64,000 bases of DNA, taken from Rhodococcus qingshengii (GTDB lineage Bacteria; Actinomycetota; Actinomycetes; Mycobacteriales; Mycobacteriaceae). The stretch's first letter is position 1, and each line of letters opens with the position of its first letter. The position numbers and the translations under genes are program-made. The stretch covers positions 310,001-374,000 of the forward strand of contig NZ_JAJNCL010000004.1 of assembly GCF_021025955.1 (NCBI RefSeq). The letters run 5' to 3'. Shown in pieces: positions 28,143-43,155 of the stretch. Below the pieces are notes generated by a model, which saw only the letters and a program-made list of their open reading frames with translations, was not told the DNA's origin and made no database searches.

Positions 28143-28158
28143 CTTACCGTAGAGTAAG
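28143..28158. promoter_or_regulatory. Palindromic operator, copy 1 (before tetR)
   Basis: CTTACCGTAGAGTAAG: half-sites CTTAC and GTAAG, core TTACC-N4-AGTAA, 31 bp before the TetR start codon. The same pattern recurs at 31173-31188 and 43142-43155. Confidence 0.65.
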
Positions 28159-28188
28159 GTCGACATTTACCCTGTGGTTGGAGGAAGC

Positions 28189-28788
28189 ATGGCCGGCGGT
28201 ACCAAGCGACTGCCACGCGCAGTGCGTGAGCAGCAGATGCTCGACGCAGCTGTGGACGTGTTCTCCGACAGGGGGTTTCACGAAACTTCGATGGACGCCA
28301 TCGCGGCCAAAGCCGAGATCTCGAAGCCGATGCTGTACCTGTACTACGGCTCGAAGGAAGAGCTGTTCGCGGCGTGCATTCATCGTGAAGGACTTCGCTT
28401 CCTCGAGGCACTCGCCCCGGCCGGCGCGCCCAACCTGACTCCGCGCGAACAATTGCGCGCCGCTCTCGAGGGCTTCCTCGGGTTCGTGGGCGCAAACCGC
28501 AAGTCGTGGATGGTGCTCTACCGTCAGGCCGTCGGGCAGCAGGCTTTTGCGGGAACGGTGCAGTCCAGTCGCGATCGGTTGATCGAGTTGACCGCGCATC
28601 TGCTCGAGTCCAGCACCAAGGATCCTGATGCCGCGCACGATTACGGGATCATCGCCATCGCGCTCGTCGGTGCCGGTGAGGCAGTAGCCGACCGAGTCGC
28701 GGGTGGGGAAATCGAAGTGGATGCCGCAGCGGACCTACTCGAATCCCTCGCGTGGCGCGGTCTGTCGGGCAAGAAGAAGTCCGAGTAG
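28189..28788 (+). CDS. TetR family regulator (Rv0238-like)
   Basis: A 199-residue regulator. The helix-turn-helix is at about residues 12-58 (FHETSMDAIAAKAEISKP, then YLYYGSKEELF), and the rest is a helical ligand-binding domain. GGAGG stands before the ATG at 28189. It follows lpqI and precedes the fatty-acyl genes htdX, fabG4 and fadA2, the order seen around Rv0238 in M. tuberculosis. A palindrome directly upstream recurs in front of fabG4/fadA2 and fadE5, which makes this protein the best candidate repressor of that set. The ligand may be an acyl-CoA; this is inference. Confidence 0.92.
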   Translation: MAGGTKRLPRAVREQQMLDAAVDVFSDRGFHETSMDAIAAKAEISKPMLYLYYGSKEELFAACIHREGLRFLEALAPAGAPNLTPREQLRAALEGFLGFVGANRKSWMVLYRQAVGQQAFAGTVQSSRDRLIELTAHLLESSTKDPDAAHDYGIIAIALVGAGEAVADRVAGGEIEVDAAADLLESLAWRGLSGKKKSE

Positions 28789-28804
28789 CCCCCAAAAACG
28801 AATC

Positions 28805-28857
28805 TGAGCGAACGTACCTTTCAGTGCGTCCAAGGCGCCGAAAGGTACGTTCGCTCA
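28805..28857. terminator. Perfect 18-bp inverted repeat between convergent genes
   Basis: TGAGCGAACGTACCTTTC is matched by an exact inverted copy at 28840-28857 across a 17-nt loop. It lies between the convergent tetR and htdX genes, so it probably ends transcription from both sides. The length and perfection also fit a dispersed palindromic repeat; no second copy occurs in this window. Confidence 0.7.
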
Positions 28858-28890
28858 ATTGGGGTGGGTGGGAACCCGACAAAACCTAGG

Positions 28891-29757
28891 TCAGCGCAGC
28901 GTCGCAGTGACGTGCGGGTAACCCTTCTTCGGGTGACGCAGCGACAGATCCCAGCCGTCATCGGTGCGGTCGGCGTATGCATTCAGCGTCGCCGGTAGCA
29001 GAATCGGCTTGCCGAAGCGCACGCTGTACGTGACCTTGTCCGCGACAGAACCCTCGACGGTCCGCAGAAGGGCTGCAGCACTCCACATTCCGTGAGCAAT
29101 GGTCTTCGGAAAACCGAAAGCCTTGGCGCCCAGGGACGAGACGTGAATCGGATTGCGGTCGCCCGAGACTGCGGCGTACTTGCTGATCGTGGTCTGGTCG
29201 ACGCGGATGGTGCTCATCGGCATCGGCGGGACCTCGTCGGCCTTGGGCTCCGGTCCGGGCTGGCCGGACAGCGAGGTTTTCTGCTGGTTCAGGAAGCTCG
29301 AGGTCTGTCGCCAGACCAGTTCGCGTCCCACCCGAATTTCGGTGACCACGTCGATCAGCAAGCCCTTGCGGTGCTCACGCAAGTTCTCGGCATGCACCGA
29401 GAGGTCCAGCGGTTCGCTGACGGAGACGGGCCGCAGCGATTCGATGACGTTCTCGGCGTGAACGGAACCGACGGCGGCGAAGGGGAAGTCCTTCGACACC
29501 ATCAGCTTCATCACGGTCGGGAATGCCAAGGTGAAGGGATAGGTGATCGGCAGAGTGTCGCCGAACCGCAGTCCGGTCACACGGCAGTACGCCGCCAGGT
29601 TGTCGGTGTCGACTTTCAATCCGGTGAGGGTGAAGGTCTGCTGTGGCACCGAGCGCGAGTTGGACTTGTTCCACGGCAACAATCCCATTACCGCGCGGGA
29701 GTATATGTCGAGGGTCTTCGGCTGCTCGGTGAGCGCGACGGTCTTAGCTGCCATCAT
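28891..29757 (-). CDS. htdX: 3-hydroxyacyl-thioester dehydratase HtdX (MaoC-like)
   Basis: A double hotdog (R)-specific hydratase/dehydratase, 288 residues. The N-terminal hotdog lacks the active site. The C-terminal one (from about residue 180) has the hydratase-2 motif [19 protein letters not shown] followed by AHGMW. It acts on 3-hydroxyacyl-ACP or -CoA. Its ATG overlaps the fabG4 stop (ATGATG/TGA), so fabG4 and htdX are translationally coupled and could run the reduction and dehydration steps of one cycle. M. tuberculosis Rv0241c is the counterpart, in the same order beside Rv0242c. Confidence 0.92.
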
Positions 29758-31100
29758 GCGCCCAGGAGGCTCTGGCCGCAGACGCGAACGACCTGTCCTG
29801 TAACGGCATTGGAGGCAGGGCTGGCGAAGTATGCGACGGTCTCGGCGACGTCGACGGTCTCGCCGCCCTGCAGGAGGGAGCTCATGCGGCGGCCGGCTTC
29901 GCGGGTGGCGAAGGGGATGGCTGCGGTCATGGCAGTCTCGATGAAGCCCGGTGCGACGGCGTTGATGGTGATGTTCTTCTTCGCCAGGACGGGAGCTTCG
30001 GCGTGAACGAGGCCGATGACTCCGGCCTTGGAGGTGCCGTAGTTGGTCTGGCCGCGGTTGCCCGCGATACCGGCGATGGAGGAGACGTCGACGACGCGGC
30101 CGCCTTCCTTGAGGGCGCCCTTCTCGACGAGGTGCTCGGTGATCTTCTGCGGTGCAAGAAGATTGACGTTCATGACCATGTTCCAGCGGCCTTCGTCCAT
30201 GTTGGCGAGGGTCTTGTCGCGGGTGATGCCGGCGTTGTGGACGATGATGTCCGCGCCGCCGTGACGCTCGAGGAGATGAGCTGCGAGGACTTCGGCTGCG
30301 TCTGCTGCCGTGACGTCGAGAGCCAGGGACGTGCCGCCGACCTTGTTCGCGGTCTCGGACAGTGCTTCGCCGGCGGCCGGGATGTCTGCGCAGACGACGT
30401 GCGCGCCGTCGCGGGCTAGTACCTCTGCGATGGTGGCACCGATGCCGCGGGCTGCGCCGGTGACGACGGCAACCTTGCCTTCGAGCGGCTTGTCCCAGCT
30501 CGCGGGTGCGACGGAATCGTCAGCGCCGACGACGATGACCTGGCCGTCGACGAAGGCGGACTTTGCCGAAAGAAGAAAGCGCAGAGTCGATTCCACGCCG
30601 GATAGTCCGGTGGACGCCTTGGGGGAGACGTAGACCAGCTGAGCGGTGGAGCCGCGCTTGATCTCCTTGCCGACGCTGCGGGTGAAGCCTTCGAGAGCTC
30701 GTTGCGCGACATGCTCGTCGACGCTCGAGGTTTCTTCCGGCGTCGTGCCGAGAACGACGACGCGAGCCGACGGTGCGAGGTTGCGGATCACGGGCTGGAA
30801 GAACTCGAACAGCTGCTCGAGCTCGCTGACCTGAGTGATTCCGGTGGCGTCGAACACGAGTCCGCCGAAGCTGCTGTCGTGTGCCTGAGCTGCCGGGTAA
30901 TCGGAAAGCAGTACGCGCAGTGGTTCTGCGAGCCGACCATTGCCGCCGATGAGGACAGGTCCGGCGAGTGCGGGTTCCCCTGCTTTGTAGCGACGCAGGT
31001 TCTCGGGCCTGGGCAGGCCTGCCTTTGACGCGATGAATGCGCCGGGGGCGGACGAGAGGAACTGTGAATAGAGGTCGGGAGCTCCCTTGCTGGCTGCCAC
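29754..31100 (-). CDS. fabG4: 3-oxoacyl-(acyl-carrier/CoA) reductase FabG4
   Basis: A high-molecular-weight FabG of 448 residues. It has an N-terminal flavodoxin-like domain (about residues 1-205) and a C-terminal SDR domain with [14 protein letters not shown], the Ser of [10 protein letters not shown] and the YGTSK catalytic Tyr/Lys. Mycobacterial FabG4 prefers NADH and reduces long acyl substrates. The GTG start is preceded by GAAGGTAGG. It is divergent from fadA2; the 130-bp gap holds a palindromic operator at 31173-31188. It is coupled to htdX downstream. Confidence 0.95.
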
Positions 31101-31172
31101 GGTCCTACCTTCTGTTGTGTTTCGGGTTGTCTCTCACCGGGCAATCTGAAGAATGCGGCGATAGACAAGTAA

Positions 31173-31188
31173 CTTACTACTGAGTAAG
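31173..31188. promoter_or_regulatory. Palindromic operator, copy 2 (fabG4/fadA2 gap)
   Basis: CTTACTACTGAGTAAG: half-sites CTTACT and AGTAAG. It is 73 bp from the fabG4 start and 43 bp from the fadA2 start, so one bound dimer could cover both promoters. Confidence 0.7.
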
Positions 31189-31230
31189 AATAGTCTCCAA
31201 CAGGTAATCGCACCATCCTTGGAGACGCAA

Positions 31231-32586
31231 GTGACAAGCAAAGCCCGTTCAAATGCAAAGCCCGCCGCACCTCGCACTGCACCGGCCGCAGCCGCTGCGA
31301 AGTCCGCAGGTCAGCGCCGTCCGGTTGCGATCGTCGGCGGAAATCGCATTCCGTTCGCACGCTCGGATAAGGCGTACGCACAGGCGTCCAACCAGGACAT
31401 GTTCACTGCGACGCTCGACGGTCTCGTGAGCCGATTCAATCTGCAGGGCGAGAAGCTCGGCATGGTCGTCGGCGGCGCGGTACTCAAGCACAGCCGTGAT
31501 TTCAATCTCATTCGCGAGTCCGTTCTCGGCAGCGCGCTGAGCCCGTACACGTCGGCGTACGACCTTCAGCAAGCGTGTGGCACCGGACTGCAGTCGATCA
31601 TCGCCGTCGGCGACGCCATTTCGGCCGGCCGCATCGATTCCGGCATCGGTGGCGGCACGGACACCACGTCCGATGCTCCGATCGGCGTCAACGATCAGGC
31701 ACGCGAGTTCCTGCTCTCCCTTAACCGCGCGAAGTCCACGGGCGACCGCATCAAGCTGCTCGGCAACGTCCGTGCGGGCATGCTCGGCCTCGAGATTCCG
31801 CGCAACGGCGAGCCTCGCACCGGCAAGTCGATGGGCGACCACGCTGCGATCACCGCCAAGGAATTCGGCGTGAAGCGCGAGGACCAGGACGAACTTGCCG
31901 CGGCCAGCCACAAGAACATGGCAGCTGCCTACGACCGCGGTTTCTTCGACGACCTCGTCACCCCGTTCCTCGGTCTCACCCGCGACGACAACCTCCGTCC
32001 CGGTTCGACCGTCGAGAAGCTGTCAACGCTCAAGCCGGTCTTCGGAACCAAGCTCGGCGACGCGACGATGACGGCCGGCAACTCGACGCCGCTCACCGAC
32101 GGTGCTTCGGCAGTGCTCCTCTCCACCGACGAGTGGGCCGCCGAGCGCAATCTTCCGGTTCTGGCGCACCTCGTCGATTCCGAAACCGCTGCCGTCGACT
32201 ACGTCCACGGCAAGGACGGGCTGCTCATGGCTCCCACGTACGCGATCCCGCGTTTGCTGGCCCGCAACGGCCTCACCTTGCAGGACTTCGATTACTACGA
32301 GATCCACGAAGCCTTCGCTTCGGTGGTTCTCGCAACCCTGCAGGCTTTCGAATCCGACGAGTACTGCAAGGAACGCCTCGGCCTCGACGGCGCACTGGGC
32401 TCGATCGACCGAAGCAAGCTCAATGTCAACGGATCGTCCTTGGCTGCAGGTCACCCGTTCGCGGCAACCGGCGGACGAATCGTCGCTTCCCTCGCCAAGA
32501 TGCTCGCCGAAAAGGGTTCGGGCCGTGGCCTGATCTCGATCTGTGCCGCCGGCGGCCAGGGCGTCACGGCGATTATCGAGCGGTAA
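31231..32586 (+). CDS. fadA2: Acetyl-CoA C-acyltransferase (thiolase) FadA2
   Basis: Thiolase that splits or forms 3-ketoacyl-CoA. The 451-residue product has the nucleophile Cys in QQACGTGLQS (about residue 116), the catalytic His in YEIHEAFA and in SLAAGHPFAATGGR, and the second Cys in ISICAAGGQG. The N-terminus carries an Ala/Lys-rich extension of about 25 residues. GGAGA stands 5 nt before the GTG at 31231, which decides against the TTG at 31219. It is divergent from fabG4 and ends in a strong hairpin at 32659. Confidence 0.95.
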   Translation: MTSKARSNAKPAAPRTAPAAAAAKSAGQRRPVAIVGGNRIPFARSDKAYAQASNQDMFTATLDGLVSRFNLQGEKLGMVVGGAVLKHSRDFNLIRESVLGSALSPYTSAYDLQQACGTGLQSIIAVGDAISAGRIDSGIGGGTDTTSDAPIGVNDQAREFLLSLNRAKSTGDRIKLLGNVRAGMLGLEIPRNGEPRTGKSMGDHAAITAKEFGVKREDQDELAAASHKNMAAAYDRGFFDDLVTPFLGLTRDDNLRPGSTVEKLSTLKPVFGTKLGDATMTAGNSTPLTDGASAVLLSTDEWAAERNLPVLAHLVDSETAAVDYVHGKDGLLMAPTYAIPRLLARNGLTLQDFDYYEIHEAFASVVLATLQAFESDEYCKERLGLDGALGSIDRSKLNVNGSSLAAGHPFAATGGRIVASLAKMLAEKGSGRGLISICAAGGQGVTAIIER

Positions 32587-32658
32587 CCGCTCCACAATCT
32601 CCCCTCGCGTGTGAAACTGCGCTCACCTGCAGTGATCGGCGCGAGGGGATGTGTAATC

Positions 32659-32691
32659 GGGGATCCGGCCACGAGGGGTGGCCGGATCCCC
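32659..32691 (+). terminator. Terminator of fadA2
   Basis: GGGGATCCGGCCAC pairs perfectly with GTGGCCGGATCCCC around a 5-nt loop and is followed by GAACTCTTT. A second, weaker pairing (CCCTCGCG near 32603 with CGCGAGGG near 32640) precedes it. Confidence 0.88.
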
Positions 32692-32879
32692 GAACTCTTT
32701 GCAAACTTTTTCGCGAAGGCGTGTAACGCTGCAGAATAGCTACCGATATTCATGACAGCCCCGTGTTGCTGCCTGACCCCCGACCTGGCAGCAGCGCGGG
32801 GCTCTCGTATGTCCGGATATCCTGTATTGAGTTGTCGGTGAGCGCCGCAGCGACGGTTGATGCAGCGAGGAGCCAACAG

Positions 32880-35189
32880 GTGAGTGACGAAGAGGGTCCG
32901 TCCGTCGAGAAGACGAACAGCGAGGACTCGTCCCTCCCAGAGCAGGAACTCGAGTCGGTCGAGGAACCTCAGACCCCTGAGGACGCCGAGGCAGTTGTCG
33001 AAGCTGAAACAGTAGAGCCTGAAACAGTAAAGCCTGAACCGGTCGAAGCACCGAAGCCTGTCGACGAAGACGCAATCGATTCCACAGAAGCGACCGTCGA
33101 CGAACCAGCGCTGAACGAAGAAGTAGTTGCTTCCACCGAACAAACCGTGGACGAACCAACCGTCGACGAGCCAACCGTGGAAGAGCCAATCGTCGGCGAG
33201 CCGGCCCACTACCAACTGACCGATGACGAATCGGCAAACGAAGTCACCACCGTCATCCCTGTCGTCCCGGCGGACGACGCACCGCCGACGGAAGTAGTCG
33301 ACTTGGCTCCGGCGACAGAAGCCATCGACGAGCAGACACAGCAGTTCGAGCCCCCGGCAGTTGTGGTTGCCCCGAAGCCGCCGCGCCCCGAGTTCGTGCA
33401 GCAGTACGACACCCAGCAATTCGAACCCATCCAGCAGCAGTACGAGCCTGTTGTCCGCGAACCAGAGATAGTTGCACCCCCGCCACCGCAACAACCGGTG
33501 GCGCCCGCTCCGGCGTCTTCCCGCAAGTGGGTCAAACCGGCGATAGCAGTCGGCGCCATCTTTGCCGTCGCAGTGATTGCCTACGGAGTGGACATCTTCA
33601 CGTCGTCGGGGAAAACTCCCCGAGGCACGCAGGTCGCCGGGGTCGACATCGGTGATCTGACGCCCGCCGACGCGGAAACCACGCTGCGCTCCGAACTCGG
33701 CCCAAGGCTTGTCGAACCCGTAGCCGTCCATGCCGGCGGCGTCGACTCCGAGATCGTTCCCGCGTCTGCGGGTGTCGATGTCGACTGGTCGGCCACGTTG
33801 TCCGGTGTGAACGCTCAGCCCATCAACCCGATCACCCGCATCACGTCGTTCTTCGGCTCCCGCGAGGTTCCGGTCGTGTCGACCGTCGACCAGGGGGCGT
33901 TGGACGCCTCGATGTCGCAGCTTGCGGCAAACAGCGATCGTGCGCCCGTCGAAGGTGCAGTCGTGTTCGAGGACGGTAAGGCGACGGGTATTTCGCCCGC
34001 CGCCGGCCAGGCGCTCGAAGCGCAGCAGGCGGGCGCCACGTTCGCCGCCGAGTGGTCTGACGGTGGCGTCGTCGATCTTCCAGTCGACGAAGTGCCGGTC
34101 ACCGTCACTCAGGCCGGTGTCGATCGCGCACTGCAGGAGATCGCTATTCCGGCCGTCTCGGGTGACGTCGTGGTCAACGGCCGTGACGGCAAGGTCGCGA
34201 CGCTCGGCGTCGACCAGATCGGCGAGGTGCTGACCTTCACACCCGACGGCTCGGGTGGGCTGACCCCGCAGTACAACACGGATGCCGCGATCAAGATTCT
34301 GACTCCGCAGTTGGTGTCGACGGAAGTGCAACCCAAGGACGCGTCGTTCACCTTCGCCGGTGGTAAGCCGACGGTTGTGCCTGGTGTTGTCGGAGATCTG
34401 ATCAACTGGCCGGACACGGTCAAGGAACTTCCGGTTCTGCTGGGCAGCACGGCTTCTCGGGCAACCCCTGCCGTGTACGGTCCGGTTCCGCCGGCGCTGA
34501 CCACCGAAGCCGCGAACGCGCTCGGCATCAACGAGGTGATCGGCGAATTCACCACCGGTGGTTTCGAATACGCGTCCGGTGTGAACATCGGCCTGGCTGC
34601 GTCGGCGATCGACGGTGCGGTCATCAAGCCCGGAGATACGTTCTCGCTCAACGAATACACCGGTCCACGCGGTGCCGCTCAGGGGTACGTCGAGTCAGGG
34701 ATCATCAACAACGGTCGCCCGGACAAGGCTGTCGGCGGCGGTATCAGTCAGCTTGCGACGACGCTCTACAACGCGACGTACTTCGCTGGCATGGACGACG
34801 TTGCACACACCGAGCACAGTTACTACATCTCGCGGTACCCGGAGGCTCGTGAGGCGACAATCTTCGATGGTGCGATCGACCTGCAGTTCCGTAATCCGGC
34901 GAAGACCGGCGTGATGATCGAGACGATTGCGACGTCGTCGAACATCACCGTTCGGATCTGGGGAACCAAAACCGTCGATGTCGCTTCGACGACCGGCGCG
35001 CGTACGTCGCCGACGTCACCGAACACCGTGACGTTGCCGGAGGGGCCTGGCTGTGTGGCTTCGAGCGGTGCGCCCGGATTCACGGTCAGCGACACTCGCG
35101 TGATCACCGACCACGCGAGTGGTGCCGAGATTTCCTCGAACACCCGGACCGTCAAGTACGACCCGGTGCCGATCGTGAAGTGCGAGTAG
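32880..35189 (+). CDS. VanW-domain cell-wall protein with acidic repetitive N-terminus
   Basis: A 769-residue type II membrane protein. Residues 1-215 are cytosolic, rich in Glu, Val, Pro and Thr with repeated TVDEPTVDEPTVEEP-like units. One membrane helix spans about residues 219-238 (AIAVGAIFAVAVIAYGV). Outside follow two peptidoglycan-binding-like modules (about residues 250-540) and a VanW domain near residues 560-690 (GVNIGLAASAIDGAVIKPGD, VGGGISQLATTLYNA). VanW proteins are tied to glycopeptide resistance clusters and wall biology, but the activity is not defined. GAGGAG precedes the GTG at 32880. Because the gene is alone between a terminator and a convergent gene, partners cannot be read from context. 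Confidence 0.88.
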   Translation: MSDEEGPSVEKTNSEDSSLPEQELESVEEPQTPEDAEAVVEAETVEPETVKPEPVEAPKPVDEDAIDSTEATVDEPALNEEVVASTEQTVDEPTVDEPTVEEPIVGEPAHYQLTDDESANEVTTVIPVVPADDAPPTEVVDLAPATEAIDEQTQQFEPPAVVVAPKPPRPEFVQQYDTQQFEPIQQQYEPVVREPEIVAPPPPQQPVAPAPASSRKWVKPAIAVGAIFAVAVIAYGVDIFTSSGKTPRGTQVAGVDIGDLTPADAETTLRSELGPRLVEPVAVHAGGVDSEIVPASAGVDVDWSATLSGVNAQPINPITRITSFFGSREVPVVSTVDQGALDASMSQLAANSDRAPVEGAVVFEDGKATGISPAAGQALEAQQAGATFAAEWSDGGVVDLPVDEVPVTVTQAGVDRALQEIAIPAVSGDVVVNGRDGKVATLGVDQIGEVLTFTPDGSGGLTPQYNTDAAIKILTPQLVSTEVQPKDASFTFAGGKPTVVPGVVGDLINWPDTVKELPVLLGSTASRATPAVYGPVPPALTTEAANALGINEVIGEFTTGGFEYASGVNIGLAASAIDGAVIKPGDTFSLNEYTGPRGAAQGYVESGIINNGRPDKAVGGGISQLATTLYNATYFAGMDDVAHTEHSYYISRYPEAREATIFDGAIDLQFRNPAKTGVMIETIATSSNITVRIWGTKTVDVASTTGARTSPTSPNTVTLPEGPGCVASSGAPGFTVSDTRVITDHASGAEISSNTRTVKYDPVPIVKCE

Positions 35190-35193
35190 GGAA

Positions 35194-36177
35194 CTACTTG
35201 CCGACGAGTGGGCCGAGGGTGCGGCCCGCGAGGTCGACGATGCCTGGCTCTTCGCCGTTGGTGATCAGGTTGATCACGACGCCGTCGATGCCGTGGTCGA
35301 GGATGCGCGTCTGAACTTGCTCGGCGACGTCGTCCGGGCTGCCCACGAAATGACGTTCGGTGGCCTTGGCGACAACGTCCTCCGGCGCCGTGGTGATGTC
35401 GAGACCACGTTCCGCGAGGAATGTCCGCTGATGCGCGCGAGCTTTGTCACCGTCCTCGTCGATCATCATGAACGTCAGGAAGCTGGTCTCGAGGGTTGCG
35501 GGGTCGCGGCCGGCTTCGTCGCAGCGTGCCGCAAGTGCTTCCATCTTGCGCGGCAGTTCGGACGGGTCACAGATGATGTTGAGATGATCCGCGAAGCGAG
35601 CGGCGAGCCCGAACGTCTTCTTCTCTCCGCCGCCGCCGAGCAGGATCGGCAGGTCGTCGCGGACGCGAGGCTCGTTGATGGCGTCCTTGACGTGGTACCA
35701 CTTGCCGTCGAAGGTGGGCCGCTCACCGCGGAGCATCGGCGCGATGATCTGCAGTGCTTCGTCGAGTTTCTGGAAGCGTTCGGTGAAAGTTCCGAACTCG
35801 TATCCGAACGAATTGTGTTCGAGTTCGAACCAACCGGCGCCGATACCCAGGATGGCCCGACCGCCGCTCACCACGTCGAGGGTGGTGACGGTCTTGGCGA
35901 GCATGGGCGGATTGCGGTAGGTGTTTCCCGTGACCAGTGCAGACAACTGGATGGTCTCGGTGGCCGTCGCCAGCGCGGAGAGCGCGGAGTAGGCCTCGAG
36001 CATCGGGGCGTCCGGCGCTCCGATTCCGGGGAGTTGGTAGAAGTGATCCATCACGAATGCAGTGTCGAAGCCTGCGGCTTCGGCTTCGCGGGCCTGCGCT
36101 ATGACGGTGGGGAAGAGGTCCTTGACCGGACCGCCGTAGCTGAAGTTGGGCATCTGGTATCCGAGGCGAGTGCTCAC
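35194..36177 (-). CDS. LLM-class (F420-type) oxidoreductase
   Basis: A 327-residue luciferase-like monooxygenase-fold enzyme, probably using F420H2 or FMNH2. Conserved pieces are GYQMPNFSYGG at the N-terminus, AGFDTAFVMDHF, the loop after LGIGAGWFELEHNSFGYEFG, and PILLGGGGEKKTFGLAARFA near residue 190. The GTG at 36177 starts the family's usual N-terminus; earlier starts add residues overlapping the next gene. It converges with the VanW gene, 4 nt between stops. Substrate unknown. Confidence 0.88.
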   Translation of the reverse strand: MSTRLGYQMPNFSYGGPVKDLFPTVIAQAREAEAAGFDTAFVMDHFYQLPGIGAPDAPMLEAYSALSALATATETIQLSALVTGNTYRNPPMLAKTVTTLDVVSGGRAILGIGAGWFELEHNSFGYEFGTFTERFQKLDEALQIIAPMLRGERPTFDGKWYHVKDAINEPRVRDDLPILLGGGGEKKTFGLAARFADHLNIICDPSELPRKMEALAARCDEAGRDPATLETSFLTFMMIDEDGDKARAHQRTFLAERGLDITTAPEDVVAKATERHFVGSPDDVAEQVQTRILDHGIDGVVINLITNGEEPGIVDLAGRTLGPLVGK

Positions 36178-36262
36178 CGTTTCGACGTTACTCGCGATCG
36201 GTTGACCTGGCACGATTTTACCAACTCTATGGATTCCGTTGTGCCGGGCAGACTTCCGGAAG

Positions 36263-36751
36263 TCAGAGAAGTTCTTCGGCCGCTTCGCGTCGCTTGGCGC
36301 GCTGTTGGTGAAGTTTGACTGCCGCGATTGCGATGCCGCCACCGACGATTCCGCCGACGAGAGCGCCGACCCAGGTGGACGATTCTTCGTAGGAATCGAA
36401 TTTGAGGCGCGCCATGATGCCGACTGCGGCGACGAGGTACAGCGCGATGCTGATCACGACTCGGGGACGGTTGTAGTTGGACAACACGTAGACATCGACG
36501 TCGCGCCGAAGTGCATAGACAATTGTGATCACCGAGCCGAACAGTGCGACGATCAGCAGCGCGAGCGAGATCCACGCCCCGGTTCGGCCGGCGACCCAGG
36601 GCAGAATCGCCGAGCTGACGAAGACTGCCCAGAACACACTCTGCAATCCCACCGCCGAGGCTTCGTTCCAGACGTCGCGCTGGCGCTCGTCCTTGTAGAA
36701 GTCGTCGTCCAGATCTCCGACGAACCGCATTGCCTTCATCATGGTGCTCAT
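36263..36751 (-). CDS. Four-pass membrane protein paired with an XRE regulator
   Basis: A 162-residue membrane protein with predicted helices at about 33-55, 58-80, 97-115 and 126-148 and a basic C-terminal tail. I recognise no catalytic motif. Its ATG overlaps the stop of the XRE gene (ATGA), so the two are co-translated. This regulator-plus-membrane-protein pairing is widespread in bacteria and usually lacks a known function. Confidence 0.8.
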   Translation of the reverse strand: MSTMMKAMRFVGDLDDDFYKDERQRDVWNEASAVGLQSVFWAVFVSSAILPWVAGRTGAWISLALLIVALFGSVITIVYALRRDVDVYVLSNYNRPRVVISIALYLVAAVGIMARLKFDSYEESSTWVGALVGGIVGGGIAIAAVKLHQQRAKRREAAEELL

Positions 36752-36993
36752 GCCGTCTCCTCTGGAATTTCTGCGGTGAGTGCCGATTCGGGTAGGGGAA
36801 AGAGCGCTTCGACGGTGGTCCCCAGCGCCAGTGCCAGACGAAGTGCCAGGTAGACGCTCGGTGCGTAGTCACCACGTTCGACGGAGACGATGCTCTGTCT
36901 GCTCACCTGACCTGCCGTGGCCAGTTGCGCCTGGGTGAGGCCGGCGAGGCGTCGGTGCTCCCGCACGTTGTTGTCGCCAGCCTTTCCAGTCAT
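36748..36993 (-). CDS. XRE/Cro-type helix-turn-helix regulator
   Basis: An 81-residue single-domain DNA-binding protein. The helix-turn-helix is GLTQAQLATAGQVSRQSIVS at residues 18-37, followed by the characteristic VERGDYAPSVYLALRLA. It probably binds the TTGTCA/TGTCAA half-sites that overlap its own promoter (37011-37040). It is co-translated with the membrane protein gene and divergent from a nucleotidyltransferase gene. Confidence 0.9.
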   Translation of the reverse strand: MTGKAGDNNVREHRRLAGLTQAQLATAGQVSRQSIVSVERGDYAPSVYLALRLALALGTTVEALFPLPESALTAEIPEETA

Positions 36994-36999
36994 GGGAAA

Positions 37000-37040
37000 A
37001 GTAAAGAATACTTGTCACTAGATGTCAAGTTTCCTTGTCA
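37000..37040. promoter_or_regulatory. Leaderless XRE promoter with repeated half-sites
   Basis: On the minus strand TTGACA (37028-37023), a 17-bp spacer and TTTACT (37005-37000) end 6 nt before the XRE start codon, which predicts a leaderless message. CTTGTCA at 37011 and TGTCAAG at 37023 form an inverted repeat, and another CTTGTCA lies at 37034, suggesting an autoregulatory operator that also faces the divergent gene. Confidence 0.6.
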
Positions 37041-37058
37041 TATGAGAGGCTGAAGAGC

Positions 37059-37631
37059 ATGCGTGAACGATTTCTCGAGATCGCCCTGGCCAATCCGGTG
37101 GTCGCAACGATCGTGGATCGGGCGCCGAAGTTGGAGTTGGCTGAGTGGTACCTGACCGCAGGTGGGCTCTTCCAAACCGTCTGGAATCACATCGACGGCC
37201 GTGACCCCGGAGCCGGAATCAAGGACTACGACCTCTTCTATTTCGACGCCGGCGATCTGAGCTACGACGCGGAAGATCGCGTGATTCGTTCGGCCGCAAA
37301 ACTGTTCGCCGATGTGGATGTCGATGTCGAAGTGCGCAACGAAGCTCGCGTGCACCTGTGGTACGAGCAGCATTTCGGGATTCCCGGCGTTCCGTTCACC
37401 AGTTGCCGCGACGCTATCGACCACTTCGCTTCCACAACTTGCTGTTTCGGGATCAGCAAGGCATTGGACGGCACCGTCGACGTGTATGCCCCGCATGGAT
37501 ACGGCGATCTTTTCGGCATGATCGTCCGCCCCAACCCGGTGCTGGCGCCGAGAGAGGTTTACGAGGCCAAAGCGGCACGGTGGCGCAGGGAATGGCCTGC
37601 GCTGACCGTGGAGCCTTGGCCTGAGGCCTAG
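37059..37631 (+). CDS. Nucleotidyltransferase family protein (NTP_transf_6-like)
   Basis: A 190-residue cytosolic protein of the nucleotidyltransferase fold. The core is LTAGGLFQTVWNHIDGR then GIKDYDLFYFD, where the paired acids of the DYD segment would bind metal; later VDVDVEVRNEARVHLWY and the C-terminal VYAPHGYGDLFGMIVRPN are typical of the family. GAGG is upstream of the ATG. It is divergent from the XRE/membrane pair with 65 bp between starts and nearly abuts the convergent YhgE/Pip gene. The nucleotide acceptor is unknown. Confidence 0.82.
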   Translation: MRERFLEIALANPVVATIVDRAPKLELAEWYLTAGGLFQTVWNHIDGRDPGAGIKDYDLFYFDAGDLSYDAEDRVIRSAAKLFADVDVDVEVRNEARVHLWYEQHFGIPGVPFTSCRDAIDHFASTTCCFGISKALDGTVDVYAPHGYGDLFGMIVRPNPVLAPREVYEAKAARWRREWPALTVEPWPEA

Positions 37632-37633
37632 AC

Positions 37634-39646
37634 CTAGACCTCGATCGGCGGATGCAACCTGTCCATGGTCCATTGCCGATTGCGACGTGCGGCAAGTGAA
37701 CTGGCGCCGAGTGAGGCGACGAGAAGGCCACCGAGGACGGCGATCGAGACCCACAGCCTCGAGTCGATACCGCCGACGGTGAGTTGTCGTAGCCCGTTCA
37801 CCGCGTAGGTCATGGGGTCGAACGGGTGGATGATCTGGAACGGTTTCGCGGTTGTTTCGACGGGATAGATGCCGCCGGCCGAAACCAGTTGCAGCATCAG
37901 GAACGCCAGGGTGATGACGCGTCCGACAGAGACTCCGAAGATGGCGTTGAACGCCTGGATCAACGCCATGTAGGTGGCAGTGATGAGCATCAGGAATCCG
38001 ACGGTGCCGAGGGCGTGTGTGGGGTGCAGACCGACGGCAAAGTGCACGACCAGGTACATCACGATCACCTGGCAGATGCCGATGAGCAATGCCGGCCAGT
38101 ACGAGGCGAGGACCACTCGCAGCGCACCGAGTCCGTTTGCGATGGGCCGGTTCTGGAGCGGCTTGAGCAGCATCCAGGTGATGATGCCGCCCACGAACAG
38201 CGCGAGGGGCAGGAAGAACGGAGCAAAACCGGTACCGAAGGTGCTGGCGCGGTTCTCGTACGTCTCCTGTAGTTCGACCGGGCTGGAGAGCGTTTGAGCG
38301 GTTGCGGTTCGCTGTTGATCGGTCCAACTGGGAATTTGGCCGGCGCCCTCGGTGAGTTTGGTTGCAAGTTCGGAGGACCCGGCGCGAAGTTGCTCGGTGC
38401 CGTCGGCGAGTTTGGCCGCACCGTCGGAGAGTTGGACGCTACCGTCGGTGAGTTGAACCAGTCCACTACTGAGGGTTTGAGCGCCGTCGTTGACCTGTTG
38501 ACCGCCGTCACGAAGCTGCACCAGACCGTTGCGGAGTTCACCGCCGCCGTTGGCCGCGGCATTCAGCCCGGCTCGGAAGGTGCTCGACGGATCGTCGAGT
38601 TGGTAAGCGAGTTGTTGTGCACCGCTCTTGAGTTCGCTCAGTTGGCCCATGGTCGCTTCACCGAAACCCTGAGTGCGCAGCATGTCCTGGGCAGGCGCGA
38701 GGGCATTGGCGATCTGTTGGCTGACCGGATCCGGGTTCAGTCGAAGACTGGCCACTGCCTGCCCGACCAACTGTGCGACGTCTGATTGTGTGTTCCCGAG
38801 GACGCTCAGTTGGTCGACGACCTGGCTGACGCCACCACTGAGTTGGCTTGCGCCGTCGCCAAGTTGAACAGCTCCGAGATCGAGTTGCCCCAAACCGTCG
38901 GTCAGTGCGAGGACACCGTCCGTGGCGGTGTTGATGCCGGTCGAGAGTTGCGCTGTACCGCCGGCCAGAGTGGCTGCGCCGTCGCGTGCGGTAACCATGT
39001 TGTCGGCCAGCGTTTTCGAGCCCGACGCCAATTCGCCGGCTCCGGCGTTGGCTGTGTTCACTCCGGCCGAGAGCTGGAGCGCTCCGTCGGCGGCCTGTTT
39101 CAAACCTGCACCCGCGTCGGTCAATCCGACCAGAACCGTCTCGACCGACTGCGCGCCGATCTTGTCGCTGACTTGGCTGAGGACCTGCTGGGCGGCATTT
39201 TGACCGATGATGGTGCCGAGGTAGTTGTTGACGTCGTTGAAGGTGAACTGCAACTGCGCTTTGTGGGGGTCCTTGGACGTCGGGGATGCAACGGCCTCGC
39301 TGAAGTTCTCGGGCAGAGTGAGAGAGAAGTAGTAGGTGCCGTCCGAAACTCCCTGTGCGGCTTCCTGTTGTGAGACCAGGTGGAGGTCGAGCTCACCGGA
39401 ATCGAGCAGCGCTTGGCTGACCTCGTCGCCCGCGTTGAGTTCCTGCCCCTGGACCATTGCGCCACGGTCGGTGTTGACCAGCGCTACGGGGACCTTGTTG
39501 ACCTCACCGAATGGATTCCAGAAGGCCCACAGGTACATTGCGCCGTACAGGAGCGGCATCAAGATGATGGTGACGAGTGCAATTCTGGGCATCGCGCCGC
39601 GGGAGAACCGCTTGAGTTCGGTTCCGAGAGACATTCCAGCGAGCAT
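37634..39646 (-). CDS. YhgE/Pip domain membrane protein (ABC-2-type)
   Basis: A 670-residue membrane protein. One helix lies near residues 21-42, followed by a large extracytoplasmic region with a long run of about 10-residue repeats of the form LxxGxxQLxxG (about residues 180-460) that should form an extended coiled structure. A C-terminal ABC-2-like set of five to six helices starts at about residue 485. The family includes the phage infection protein (Pip) of lactococci and the Bacillus YhgE; the physiological role is not established. It lies 5 nt after a gene for an ABC-type ATPase, its likely partner. Confidence 0.9.
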   Translation of the reverse strand: MLAGMSLGTELKRFSRGAMPRIALVTIILMPLLYGAMYLWAFWNPFGEVNKVPVALVNTDRGAMVQGQELNAGDEVSQALLDSGELDLHLVSQQEAAQGVSDGTYYFSLTLPENFSEAVASPTSKDPHKAQLQFTFNDVNNYLGTIIGQNAAQQVLSQVSDKIGAQSVETVLVGLTDAGAGLKQAADGALQLSAGVNTANAGAGELASGSKTLADNMVTARDGAATLAGGTAQLSTGINTATDGVLALTDGLGQLDLGAVQLGDGASQLSGGVSQVVDQLSVLGNTQSDVAQLVGQAVASLRLNPDPVSQQIANALAPAQDMLRTQGFGEATMGQLSELKSGAQQLAYQLDDPSSTFRAGLNAAANGGGELRNGLVQLRDGGQQVNDGAQTLSSGLVQLTDGSVQLSDGAAKLADGTEQLRAGSSELATKLTEGAGQIPSWTDQQRTATAQTLSSPVELQETYENRASTFGTGFAPFFLPLALFVGGIITWMLLKPLQNRPIANGLGALRVVLASYWPALLIGICQVIVMYLVVHFAVGLHPTHALGTVGFLMLITATYMALIQAFNAIFGVSVGRVITLAFLMLQLVSAGGIYPVETTAKPFQIIHPFDPMTYAVNGLRQLTVGGIDSRLWVSIAVLGGLLVASLGASSLAARRNRQWTMDRLHPPIEV

Positions 39647-39651
39647 CGCGG

Positions 39652-40368
39652 TTACCTAGCGCCTTCTTGGTCGGGATTGGTGACTTCTTGGAGCAGGGTG
39701 ACGGCTTCGATGTGTGATCCGTCGGGCAGCGGGTTGACGGTCGACGCGATGATGGTCTGGTAGCTCCCCATCTCGACGAGTCGCTCGACGAGGTATGCGC
39801 GTTCGGAGTCGCGCCGCACCTGTTCGAGATCGTCGACGACAAGCAAGGCCGGCTTCTTCGTGTTCGCGACGGCGATACGCAGCAGGGTCGCCTCGAGTTC
39901 CCCGAGATCGCTGACGTACCGGCCGAGCGCAGGTAACGGATGATCGCCGAAGACGGGGGCACACACCGCTTCGAGTTCGCGATCTCCGGCGCGTCCGATG
40001 AGTTTGTACCAGGGGGCATCCCATCGGATCTGCTCGGTGATCAGATCGCGGACGGTGACGGACTCGGCAAGCTCGTCGATGTCCTCGAACCCGGCGACCC
40101 CGGCGATCTCGAAGATCTCTCGGGGACGCGTTCGACCGAAGACGGACAGTGATCCGGAACTGGCTTTCATTCGTCCGCTGAGTGTCAGAAGTAAGGACGT
40201 ACGTCCTGAACCGGCCGAGCCTTCGAGGATGGTCACACCGCCCGCACGAATCTCGAGATTGACGGGTCCGAACACCGGCCCCCATGGGCCGTCGAGCGCC
40301 AGGTCCGTGGCGGTCAATGCCAGTTCTGGGGCGTAATCGAGTTGTGCGTGCTCTGGTGCGACCACCAT
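39652..40368 (-). CDS. Degenerate ABC-type ATP-binding protein, partner of YhgE/Pip
   Basis: A 238-residue ABC-fold protein. Walker A is intact (LEGSAGSGRTSLLL near residue 50). The signature LSGGQ is replaced by VSDLGELE. Walker B reads ALLVVDDLE, with Asp in place of the catalytic Glu, and the switch His is absent (IIASTVN). ATP binding is likely but hydrolysis would be weak or atypical. AGGTGA precedes the ATG at 40368. The gene stops 5 nt before the YhgE/Pip gene, which supports a two-component membrane machine. Confidence 0.82.
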   Translation of the reverse strand: MVVAPEHAQLDYAPELALTATDLALDGPWGPVFGPVNLEIRAGGVTILEGSAGSGRTSLLLTLSGRMKASSGSLSVFGRTRPREIFEIAGVAGFEDIDELAESVTVRDLITEQIRWDAPWYKLIGRAGDRELEAVCAPVFGDHPLPALGRYVSDLGELEATLLRIAVANTKKPALLVVDDLEQVRRDSERAYLVERLVEMGSYQTIIASTVNPLPDGSHIEAVTLLQEVTNPDQEGAR

Positions 40369-40554
40369 GATCACCTATCTGTCGCTGTACTCGGTCCGAT
40401 ACCGAATCCGAGTGCCGGTTCAGTTGATGTTGTGCTCACCCAATCACATCGGTAGCGGGCGAGCGGTCCCATGAATGGGATGTGTCGGACACGTTCGGCA
40501 ACTTGGAGACCGAACGGTATGTATTCTGTTGGAAACGGAACGGGGGGAGTCGAG

Positions 40555-41175
40555 GTGCCGGTTCGTAGGCGCGGTATGTGCGCGGTACTAGTCATGGCCG
40601 CCCTGTCGGTTGTCTCCTGTGCCGGTGAGCGCGAGTCGCTCCCGTTCGTGTCCAGCGAAGAGCGTTTCGCGTTCACCGGACGCAATCCGGCTGCTGGTCC
40701 TCCGAATGTTCCGACCTTGCCTGCCGAAGATGCGCCATACGGAGCGATAAAGCTGTCGGGGGCTTGGACGGGCGCTGCCAAAGTCTCGGTGCCCGGATCT
40801 GTCATGTGTATCGAATCGGGTTCCGGAGATGCCACTCCAACTGGCTACCGTCAATGGACGTACGAGGTGCACACGAGTTCGTTCTACGAATACGACGGAG
40901 GCGGCGAGTATCCGGGACGCGATTTTCACTTGTACGTCATGGTGAACGAGAGTCCGGAGCAAGGGCGATCCGGAGCGATAGTGAAGTTCTCCGATCAAAG
41001 TGGAGAGTTCGTGTCTTTCGGTATCAGTGACGACTCGCCCTTCGAGATGACCGGTTCCTCGGACCGAACGCGTCTGGCAATCGCAATGACCGGAACGGCG
41101 GCGAGAGCCGGCGAACAACCGACGACGTCGGTACTGTCCGCTCAGATCAGTTGCCCCACCATCGAGCGTCGATGA
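40555..41175 (+). CDS. Lipoprotein of unknown function
   Basis: A 206-residue secreted protein. A basic N-terminus, hydrophobic core and lipobox SVVSC place the lipid-modified Cys at residue 22. The mature part is polar and beta-prone, with two further Cys residues (in SVMCIES and near the C-terminus, ISCPT) that could form a disulfide. GGGGGGAG precedes the GTG start. It is divergent from the ABC/Pip pair, 186 bp apart. I recognise no family. Confidence 0.75.
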   Translation: MPVRRRGMCAVLVMAALSVVSCAGERESLPFVSSEERFAFTGRNPAAGPPNVPTLPAEDAPYGAIKLSGAWTGAAKVSVPGSVMCIESGSGDATPTGYRQWTYEVHTSSFYEYDGGGEYPGRDFHLYVMVNESPEQGRSGAIVKFSDQSGEFVSFGISDDSPFEMTGSSDRTRLAIAMTGTAARAGEQPTTSVLSAQISCPTIERR

Positions 41176-41191
41176 CCGCTGACAACAAAAA

Positions 41192-41222
41192 TGCCGGCCC
41201 CGAAACATTCTCGGGACCGGCA
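41192..41222. terminator. Bidirectional terminator between lipoprotein gene and fadE5
   Basis: TGCCGGCCCCGA pairs with TCGGGACCGGCA with one C-A mismatch, around a 7-nt loop. CTTTTC follows on the plus strand and TTTTTGTTG on the minus strand. Confidence 0.88.
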
Positions 41223-41244
41223 CTTTTCATGAATCAGGAACGAA

Positions 41245-43080
41245 TCAGAATGCTGCTTCGTCGATCTCCATGATGTCGTTCTCGGTGTTCGCGACGATCT
41301 CGCGCGAAGCGGTGAGCTCCGGCAGGACGTTCTTGGCGAAGAAGGACGCGATGGCGACCTTGCCCTCGTAGAAGCTCTTGTCCTTATCGGAAGCGCCGTT
41401 GTCGAGTGCTGCGAGAGCGATCTCGGACTGACGGAGCAGTTGCCAGCCGATGAGCAGGTCGCCGACGGACATCAGGAAGCGGACGGAGCCGAGGCCGACC
41501 TTGTACAGCTGGGTGGGCTGCTCCTGAGCTCCCATGAGGAAGCCGGTGAGCGTGGCAGCCATGGCCTGGACGTCTTCGAGTGCGGTGGCGAGCAGTGCGC
41601 GCTCCGCCTTCAGACGGCCGTTGCCGGCTTCGCTGTCGATGAAAGTCTTGATCTGTCCGGCAACGTGAGCGAGCGCGACACCGCGGTCACGGGCGATCTT
41701 GCGGAAGAAGAAGTCCTGAGCCTGGATGGCCGTGGTGCCTTCGTACAGCGAGTCGATCTTGGAGTCGCGGATGTACTGCTCGATCGGGTAGTCCTGCAGG
41801 AAGCCGGAGCCACCGAGGGTCTGCAGGCTGTCCGTCAGGTACTGGTACGCACGCTCGGAGCCGACGCCCTTGACGATCGGGAGCAGCAGGTCGTTGACGC
41901 GGAACGCGGTGTCCTTGTCTGCGCCCGAGACGAGCTTGGCGACAACCTCGTCCTGGTGTGCTGCGGTGTAGAGGTACACCGCGCGCAGGCCTTCGGCGTA
42001 TGCCTTCTGCATTGCCAGGCTACGACGCACGTCGGGGTGGTGCGTGATGGTCACGCGCGGCGCGGCCTTGTTGGTCATCTGGGTCAGGTCTGCGCCCTGC
42101 GCACGCTGCTTGGCGTAGTCGAGAGCATTGAGGTAACCGGTGGAGAGGGTGGCGATTGCCTTGGTGCCGACCATCATTCGAGCGTGCTCGATGACGTCGA
42201 ACATCTGGGCGATGCCGTTGTGGACCTCGCCGACCAGCCAGCCCTGTGCGGGGATGCCGTGGCCGCCGAAGGTGACCTCACACGTGGCGGAGACCTTCAG
42301 GCCCATCTTGTGCTCGACGTTGGTGACGAAGGCGCCGTTGCGCTCGCCGAACTCTTCGGTCTCGAAGTTGAAGTGCGTCTTCGGGACGAAGAACAGGCTC
42401 AGGCCCTTGGTGCCGGGTCCGGCGCCTTCGGGGCGAGCGAGAACGAGGTGGAAGATGTTCTCGAACAGGTCGTCCGAGTCGGCCGAGGTGATGAAGCGCT
42501 TGACGCCCTCGATGTGCCAGGAGCCGTCGTCCTGCTTGACTGCCTTGGTGCGTCCGGCACCGACGTCGGAGCCGGCGTCGGGCTCGGTGAGGACCATCGT
42601 GGCGCCCCATCCGCGTTCGACGATGGTGGCTGCCCACTTCTTCTGCTCTTCGGTGCCGTTGTTGAACAGCACGTCCGCGAAGGCGGGTCCGGCCTGGTAC
42701 ATGTGCGCTGCGGGCTGTGCGCCCAGGATCAGCTCACCGATGGCCCACACGACAGAGCGGGGAACCGGCACGCCGCCGACCTCTTCGCTCAGTCCCATGC
42801 GGTACCACTCGGCATCCCACAGAGCCTTGAACGACTTCTTGAAGGATTCCGGAAGTGCAACGGTGTGCGTCTCGGGATCGAAGACAGGGGGGTTGCGGTC
42901 CGCGTCGGCGAAAGATTCGCCCAGCGGTCCCTCGGCCAGGCGTGCGACCTCTGCCAGCATGTTGCGGACAGTGTCGGCATCCAGGTCGCCCCAAGCGCCT
43001 TCGCTCAGTGGCTTCTCCAGTCCGAGAACCTCGAAGAGGTTGAACTCCAGGTCCCGAACGTTGCTCTTGTAATGGCCCAT
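41245..43080 (-). CDS. fadE5: Acyl-CoA dehydrogenase FadE5
   Basis: Flavoenzyme for the first step of beta-oxidation, acyl-CoA to trans-2-enoyl-CoA. The 611-residue product has the same length as M. tuberculosis FadE5 (Rv0244c), a larger subtype than classic 380-residue dehydrogenases, with an extra C-terminal domain. Visible elements are [28 protein letters not shown] and [20 protein letters not shown]. The ATG at 43080 has GGGAG upstream. It is transcribed separately from the methyltransferase gene before it; the 89-bp gap contains operator copy 3. In M. tuberculosis it adjoins fadA2; here about 8.7 kb lies between them. Confidence 0.95.
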
Positions 43081-43141
43081 GTCTTCTGCTTCTCCCAGTG
43101 AGGTGGTGCGGTCCAGCACTCCTAGTACCGCCCGAAGTTTA

Positions 43142-43155
43142 TTACTCGTCGGTAA
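43142..43155. promoter_or_regulatory. Palindromic operator, copy 3 (before fadE5)
   Basis: TTACTCGTCGGTAA has the same TTACY-N4-RGTAA form as copies 1 and 2 and is 62-75 bp upstream of the fadE5 start. A further GTTAC half-site lies at 43166-43170, in line with an adjacent GTAAC (43152-43156). Confidence 0.6.

Follow-up and report, generated by a model that had tools for sequence, protein, structure and literature searches.

Two flank types of one palindrome at fatty-acyl genes of Rhodococcus qingshengii and their candidate readers, TetR and FasR

The palindrome and its genes

We examined a stretch of 64,000 nucleotides (64 kb) from Rhodococcus qingshengii, referred to here as the window, which holds the gene of a TetR-family regulator (tetR, its product denoted by TetR), the fatty-acyl genes htdX, fabG4, fadA2 and fadE5, and three copies of the palindrome TTACYNNNNRGTAA. 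A pattern scan returned exactly the three copies listed in the original prediction and no fourth, while none of 100 dinucleotide shuffles of the window contained any match. Sites with this core were divided by their flanks into two classes: class A, CTTACYNNNNRGTAAG, with C..G flanks, which is found at tetR and between fabG4 and fadA2, and class B, AAGTTACYNNNNRGTAACTT, with G..C flanks, which stands before the genes of the electron transfer flavoprotein (ETF). The features of the window are as follows.

28144..28157, no strand: predicted class A operator site before tetR, atcTTACCGTAGAGTAAggt, 31 bp ahead of the likely ATG
28189..28788, plus strand: TetR-family regulator gene (TetR_N and TetR_C_46), its reading frame open from GTG 28174, with the likely ATG start at 28189
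28891..29757, minus strand: htdX-like MaoC-domain dehydratase (PF01575), downstream of fabG4
29754..31100, minus strand: fabG4-like 3-oxoacyl reductase, a short-chain dehydrogenase/reductase (SDR; PF13561, PF00106)
31174..31187, no strand: predicted class A operator in the fabG4-fadA2 gap, aacTTACTACTGAGTAAgaa, from the pattern scan and conservation
31219..32586, plus strand: fadA2-like thiolase (PF00108, PF02803), start codon uncertain
41245..43080, minus strand: fadE5 acyl-CoA dehydrogenase (Pfam; PDB relatives of FadE5), its reading frame open from GTG 43119, with the likely ATG start at 43080
43142..43155, no strand: fadE5 site, aagTTACCGACGAGTAAtaa as read on the minus strand, one half full class B, the other half neither A nor B

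Pfam domains agreed with the identities proposed earlier for these five genes. The N-terminal TetR_N helix-turn-helix of TetR (PF00440) scored 65.1 bits against a cut-off of 24, and the best PDB matches of the window's fadE5 included chains named FadE5. The sites, first described as falling exactly at promoters, which remain putative here, precede the fabG4 start as called by 73 bp, the called TTG of fadA2 by 31 bp and the likely ATG of fadE5 by 61 bp, and the end of fadE5 is about 8.7 kb from fadA2, as had been stated. With one mismatch permitted, three extra copies were found in the window, at 96, 12794 and 32573; the last (32573-32586) overlaps the 3′ end of fadA2.

In the whole genome to which the window belongs, 21 exact copies of TTACYNNNNRGTAA were detected against 4 for the reversed pattern, which served as the genome-wide control, so the motif is not scattered at random. 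When the Y and R positions were freed and the flanks limited, 26 sites were found versus 13 in the control; 20 of the 26 keep both Y and R, and therefore those positions matter. Most of the 18 exact sites outside the window are no more than about 120 bp away from the start of a gene. Lipid genes near them encode enoyl-CoA hydratases (L001, L014), a secretory lipase (L002), a thiolase (L003), an AMP-binding acyl-CoA synthetase-like protein (L005), a DUF4442 protein (L007), a reductase with male-sterility and SDR domains (L008), a flavin-type reductase (L009), an acyl-CoA dehydrogenase (L010), EtfB (L011), an AurF/SDR pair (L096) and an Fe-S protein interpreted as EtfD (L097). Class A flanks on both sides were found in 6 of the 21 (tetR, fabG4|fadA2, L007, L008, L010 and L014), and class B flanks on both sides in 2 (etfB and etfD).

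Class A sites and their genes

Among 80 named loci from Rhodococcus, Rhodococcoides, Prescottella, Antrihabitans and Nocardia, the exact core was present before tetR in 75, with four of the five misses only one base off, and before fabG4 in 71 of 73, both misses having their upstream region outside the locus. In 54 family loci, it was found at 49/49 fabG4, 48/49 fadA2 and 46/53 tetR promoters (4 more tetR promoters at one mismatch). Core sites outnumbered those of the reversed control by 159 to 1 in the named loci and by 101 to 0 in the family loci. The motif is present in the orthologous promoters. All 49 fabG4 promoters had the C..G flanks, and the 53 tetR promoters were divided into 38 class A, 8 mixed and 7 without an exact core. 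Taken together, 87 of these 102 promoters were exact class A and none had class B flanks. The conservation supports the prediction that the sites at tetR and fabG4|fadA2 represent one highly conserved operator, and a palindrome near the regulator's own gene, as expected of the TetR family, is present as a candidate operator.

A scan of 61 genomes which ignored gene annotation, using AWCTTACYNNNNRGTAAGWT for class A, identified 72 sites in 41 genomes and none with the reversed control in any of them. Five gene families account for 63 of the 72: fabG4|fadA2 (18), the DUF4442 gene (14), tetR (12), an acyl-CoA dehydrogenase (10) and a reductase/SDR (9, of which 4 are at an SDR matching only the second half of the fatty-acyl reductase). 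The other nine sites stand at two distant acyl-CoA dehydrogenases, one thiolase, one hydratase, one SDR and four genes matching none of the queries. The regulon was originally predicted to comprise fatty-acyl genes; that character held, but the predicted set is larger, with the DUF4442, acyl-CoA dehydrogenase and fatty-acyl reductase/SDR genes recurring. DUF4442 proteins have the hotdog fold, and the PDB match of the DUF4442 protein in the window's own genome was PA1835 (1yoc).

Two further observations concern individual class A loci. In L165 and L166, from genus g28, no site was found before tetR even at one mismatch, yet the fabG4 site is kept; autoregulation of tetR may have been lost there, judging from the promoters. 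In L014 (positions 1489-1526; contig C33, about 346300), the class A site upstream of the enoyl-CoA hydratase gene is centred in an inverted repeat 38 nt long whose 16-bp arms match perfectly, and operator and terminator may overlap there.

Class B sites at etfB, etfD and fadE5

Scanning the same 61 genomes in the same way with AWGTTACYNNNNRGTAACWT, the class B pattern, we identified 43 sites in 28 genomes, again with no hit of the reversed control in any genome; 24 were at etfB, 17 at etfD, one at a fadE5 homolog and one elsewhere. The first 30 promoters collected for each gene came from the closest relatives, so 20 etfB and 20 etfD promoters of more distant genomes were added. Within the first 30, the exact core was present in 28 etfB and 22 etfD promoters (5 more etfD promoters at one mismatch). 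Only 10 of the 30 fadE5 promoters had the exact core, and the other 20 were one mismatch off, mostly with GTAG replacing the last GTAA.

At exact cores, the flanks divided the genes: tetR and fabG4 together gave 87 A and no B, whereas etfB, etfD and fadE5 gave 10 A and 59 B. These counts come from related genomes and are not independent. No class A operator was found in any of the 30 fadE5 promoters, and the window's fadE5 site is without any class A half. The flanks of the fadE5 sites differ from those at tetR and fabG4 and group with those of etfB and etfD, although fadE5 sites rest on one strong class B half and not on a full class B palindrome. Accordingly, the claim of one regulon comprising all three sites stood in part: the tetR and fabG4|fadA2 sites form one conserved operator with fatty-acyl neighbours, whereas the fadE5 site has other flanks, groups with etfB/etfD, and belongs to a kind of site that persists in a genus lacking TetR (below). 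Retention of the fadE5 site after the gene had moved was originally taken as a sign of selection. That inference stands, although the selection was probably exerted through a second regulator.

Four other sites in the window's own genome (L001:1501, L003:1501, L006:1501 and L098:4001) have one class B side and no class A side. They precede genes for an enoyl-CoA hydratase, a thiolase, a malic-enzyme open reading frame and a LuxR-type response regulator, respectively, and their flanks make them possible further class B targets. Upstream of fadE5 in seven Nocardia loci (L074, L079-L081, L083, L085 and L087), tandem boxes were seen, an exact TTACYNNNNRGTAA followed about 25 bp on by GTTACCCGCGAGTAG nearer the gene. 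Genome G020 has two distinct N-terminal halves resembling etfD (89% and 82% identity), each close to the start of a contig, and another fragment where a contig ends (C23, C31 and C12), which reflects either a duplication or an assembly break.

Candidate readers of the two classes

An ortholog of TetR was detected in 55 of the 61 genomes, the other six having distant matches only. An exact class A site was present in 41 of the 55 genomes with the ortholog vs none of the six without, in a set of related genomes. Two of these six, from the genus here called g8, kept class B flanks before etfB and etfD, and one of the two (G007) has a class B site before the fadE5 homolog as well. Since g8 is without TetR and yet keeps class B, TetR cannot be the class B reader there, and it is likely, from this distribution, that class B has another reader.

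FasR was the nearest characterised relative of TetR both by sequence (E about 1e-19, about 30% identity) and by fold, and it is present in g8. The predicted recognition helix of TetR comprises residues 51-58. Residues 50-57 were SKPMLYLY in all 55 orthologs, 50 of them reading SKPMLYLYY and the other five differing at residue 58 only, whereas residues 50-58 of FasR were SKPVLYQHF in 19 of 19 distinct FasRs and in 31 of 33 when further ones were included. The two helices therefore differ at four residues, M/V53, L/Q56, Y/H57 and Y/F58. FasR (M. tuberculosis Rv3208; PDB 6o6n, 6o6o and 6o6p) resembles TetR in the SKPxLY start of the helix and in its lipid-gene targets; unlike TetR, it has a known target, fas-acpS, which it activates, as described in the accessible portions of PMC7382501 and PMC7652896. 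There it is also reported to bind three inverted repeats before fas-acpS and to be released by long acyl-CoA.

The core TACYN4RGTA was found in 14 of 20 fas promoters, against a mean of 0.1 and a maximum of 2 over 300 runs of a first-order Markov model. Eight class B half-sites were counted where 1.2 were expected, and one class A half-site where 1.2 were expected; L407, L408 and L412 have no core but hold a class B half. These fas promoter cores support FasR as the putative class B reader, without proof.

With modest confidence, we favour the following reading of the three sites, which rests on sequence comparison. They share the palindrome TTACYNNNNRGTAA; the operator at tetR and fabG4|fadA2 is likely bound by TetR, while the fadE5 site, with its class B character as at etfB and etfD, is likely bound by FasR. 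TetR would repress its own gene, htdX-fabG4, fadA2, and the DUF4442, acyl-CoA dehydrogenase and fatty-acyl reductase/SDR genes. By analogy with FasR, a fatty acyl-CoA in its pocket would make it leave the DNA. FasR, reading the same core with the mirrored flank, would couple fas to the electron path of beta-oxidation (etfBA, etfD and fadE5), and the four differing helix residues would keep the targets of the two regulators apart.

Several results weigh against this division between TetR and FasR. Class B is incomplete at its own genes: the 50 etfB promoters comprised 35 B, 10 A, 1 mixed and 4 without an exact core; the 50 etfD promoters 23 B, no A, 11 mixed and 16 without; and the 30 fadE5 promoters, rarely full class B, 1 B, 9 mixed and 20 without. 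In g8, each of the two etfD promoters has in addition a C..C site, one half of which is class A. Genus g4 has a FasR with the same helix (L475 and L476), but the two etfB and three etfD promoters read from it gave no site even with one mismatch allowed. The promoters of fasR had no conserved class B site in a scan of 20 FasR-like loci, one of which (L405) is not FasR. As for fas, L409 and both g8 promoters hold neither the core nor a class B half, and in both g28 upstream regions (L416 and L417) the core lies 440-480 bp upstream and has class A flanks. On the TetR side, tetR lacked a site even at one mismatch in 3 of 53 promoters, two of them from g28, and six sites of the window's own genome (L004, L006, L012, L013, L015 and L098) had no clear lipid link nearby.

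A single regulon, with TetR recognising class A and class B flanks alike, if perhaps not equally strongly, and with fadE5, etfBA and etfD also under its control, is in our view unlikely. The two classes do share the core and the same outer AA..TT, mixed sites exist (e.g. at g11 etfD), and etfB has class A flanks in a fifth of its promoters. However, g8 keeps class B sites without TetR and the flank was never B at tetR and fabG4, and because of this flank split and the g8 genomes a single regulon was ranked below the assignment to TetR and FasR.

A third regulator, neither FasR nor TetR, as the reader of class B is similarly improbable. It would agree with the absence of a conserved autoregulatory class B site before fasR and of class B sites from the g8 fas promoters, and the 150 TetR_N matches listed for the window's own genome leave many other candidates; on the other hand, FasR has SKPxLY in common with TetR, and the shared core occurs in the promoters of its known target. 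When such a reader was sought via autoregulation in 30 of the 56 TetR loci of g8, none stood out. A site with four mismatches before FasR of G007 was discarded, as it is not kept in G035. A reading of the sites as palindromes arisen by chance, or as structures that serve no regulator, such as terminators, is hardly credible: although the class A site of L014 lies within a long inverted repeat that could be a terminator, this explanation is contradicted by the conserved position before the same genes and by the excess over the reversed control.

More tentatively, and as a proposal that may well fail, the division could be extended to Mycobacteriales as a pair of sister acyl-CoA sensors that a single mirrored base pair keeps insulated from each other. 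FasR would control fas, etfBA, etfD and fadE5, and TetR would control a set for chain processing, made up of fabG4, htdX, fadA2 and the acyl-CoA dehydrogenase, DUF4442 and fatty-acyl reductase/SDR genes, one clade having rewired etfBA by flipping that pair. The class A etfB promoters belong to genera g7, g9, g11, g13, g16 and g18. In a tree of TetR, FabG4 and FadA2, which excludes g7 and g13, the eight placeable genomes with A-type etfB group as a single clade, together with two genomes of g9 for which etfB was unread, a clade stated without support values. It looks like the etfB promoter changed side in this clade through a flip of the mirrored base pair, and etfBA there seems to have exchanged the FasR type for that of TetR. 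If the two-sensor reading is true, fatty-acid processing and its electron outlet could be switched separately, and the system would be a natural case of paralog insulation, in which two regulators share a core and are told apart by a single base pair and four helix residues, and in which one clade seems to have had a promoter change sides.

The class B genes etfB and etfD resemble the EtfBA-EtfD pair of M. tuberculosis, which acyl-CoA dehydrogenases need in order to work and on which growth on fatty acids and cholesterol depends, according to the accessible text of PMC8593149. That text mentions IdeR- and peroxide-dependent expression of etfD and names no TetR for etfBA-etfD; FasR is here proposed as a candidate regulator for both. 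A literature search, with most subscription papers outside its reach, found no Rv0238 operator, nor any report of either regulator controlling etfD, fadE5 or fabG4-htdX. Rv0238 of M. tuberculosis, connected to the window's TetR through the label of the original prediction alone, belongs to a set of five TetRs that all mycobacteria analysed have conserved, and is absent from the motif table of 30 regulators, as far as the available part of PMC4482099 goes.

MadR, the mycolic acid desaturase regulator and an acyl-CoA-answering mycobacterial TetR, was rejected as a reader, since its consensus TCTGTG-N7-GT (given in the accessible part of PMC8872791) is unlike both classes. As a putative acyl-CoA-responsive regulator, TetR is similar in fold to FasR and to B. 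subtilis FadR. The TetR-like regulator of Rhodococcus sp. RHA1 in PDB 3f1b is an ortholog of TetR, which it matches with 383 bits across residues 4-204 and with 87% identity when the structures are compared. The title of that entry names no function, operator or ligand, and no paper came up in a whole-word literature search for 3F1B together with TetR and Rhodococcus. A predicted operator and regulon are thus provided for a conserved TetR whose structure had been solved but carried no functional assignment.

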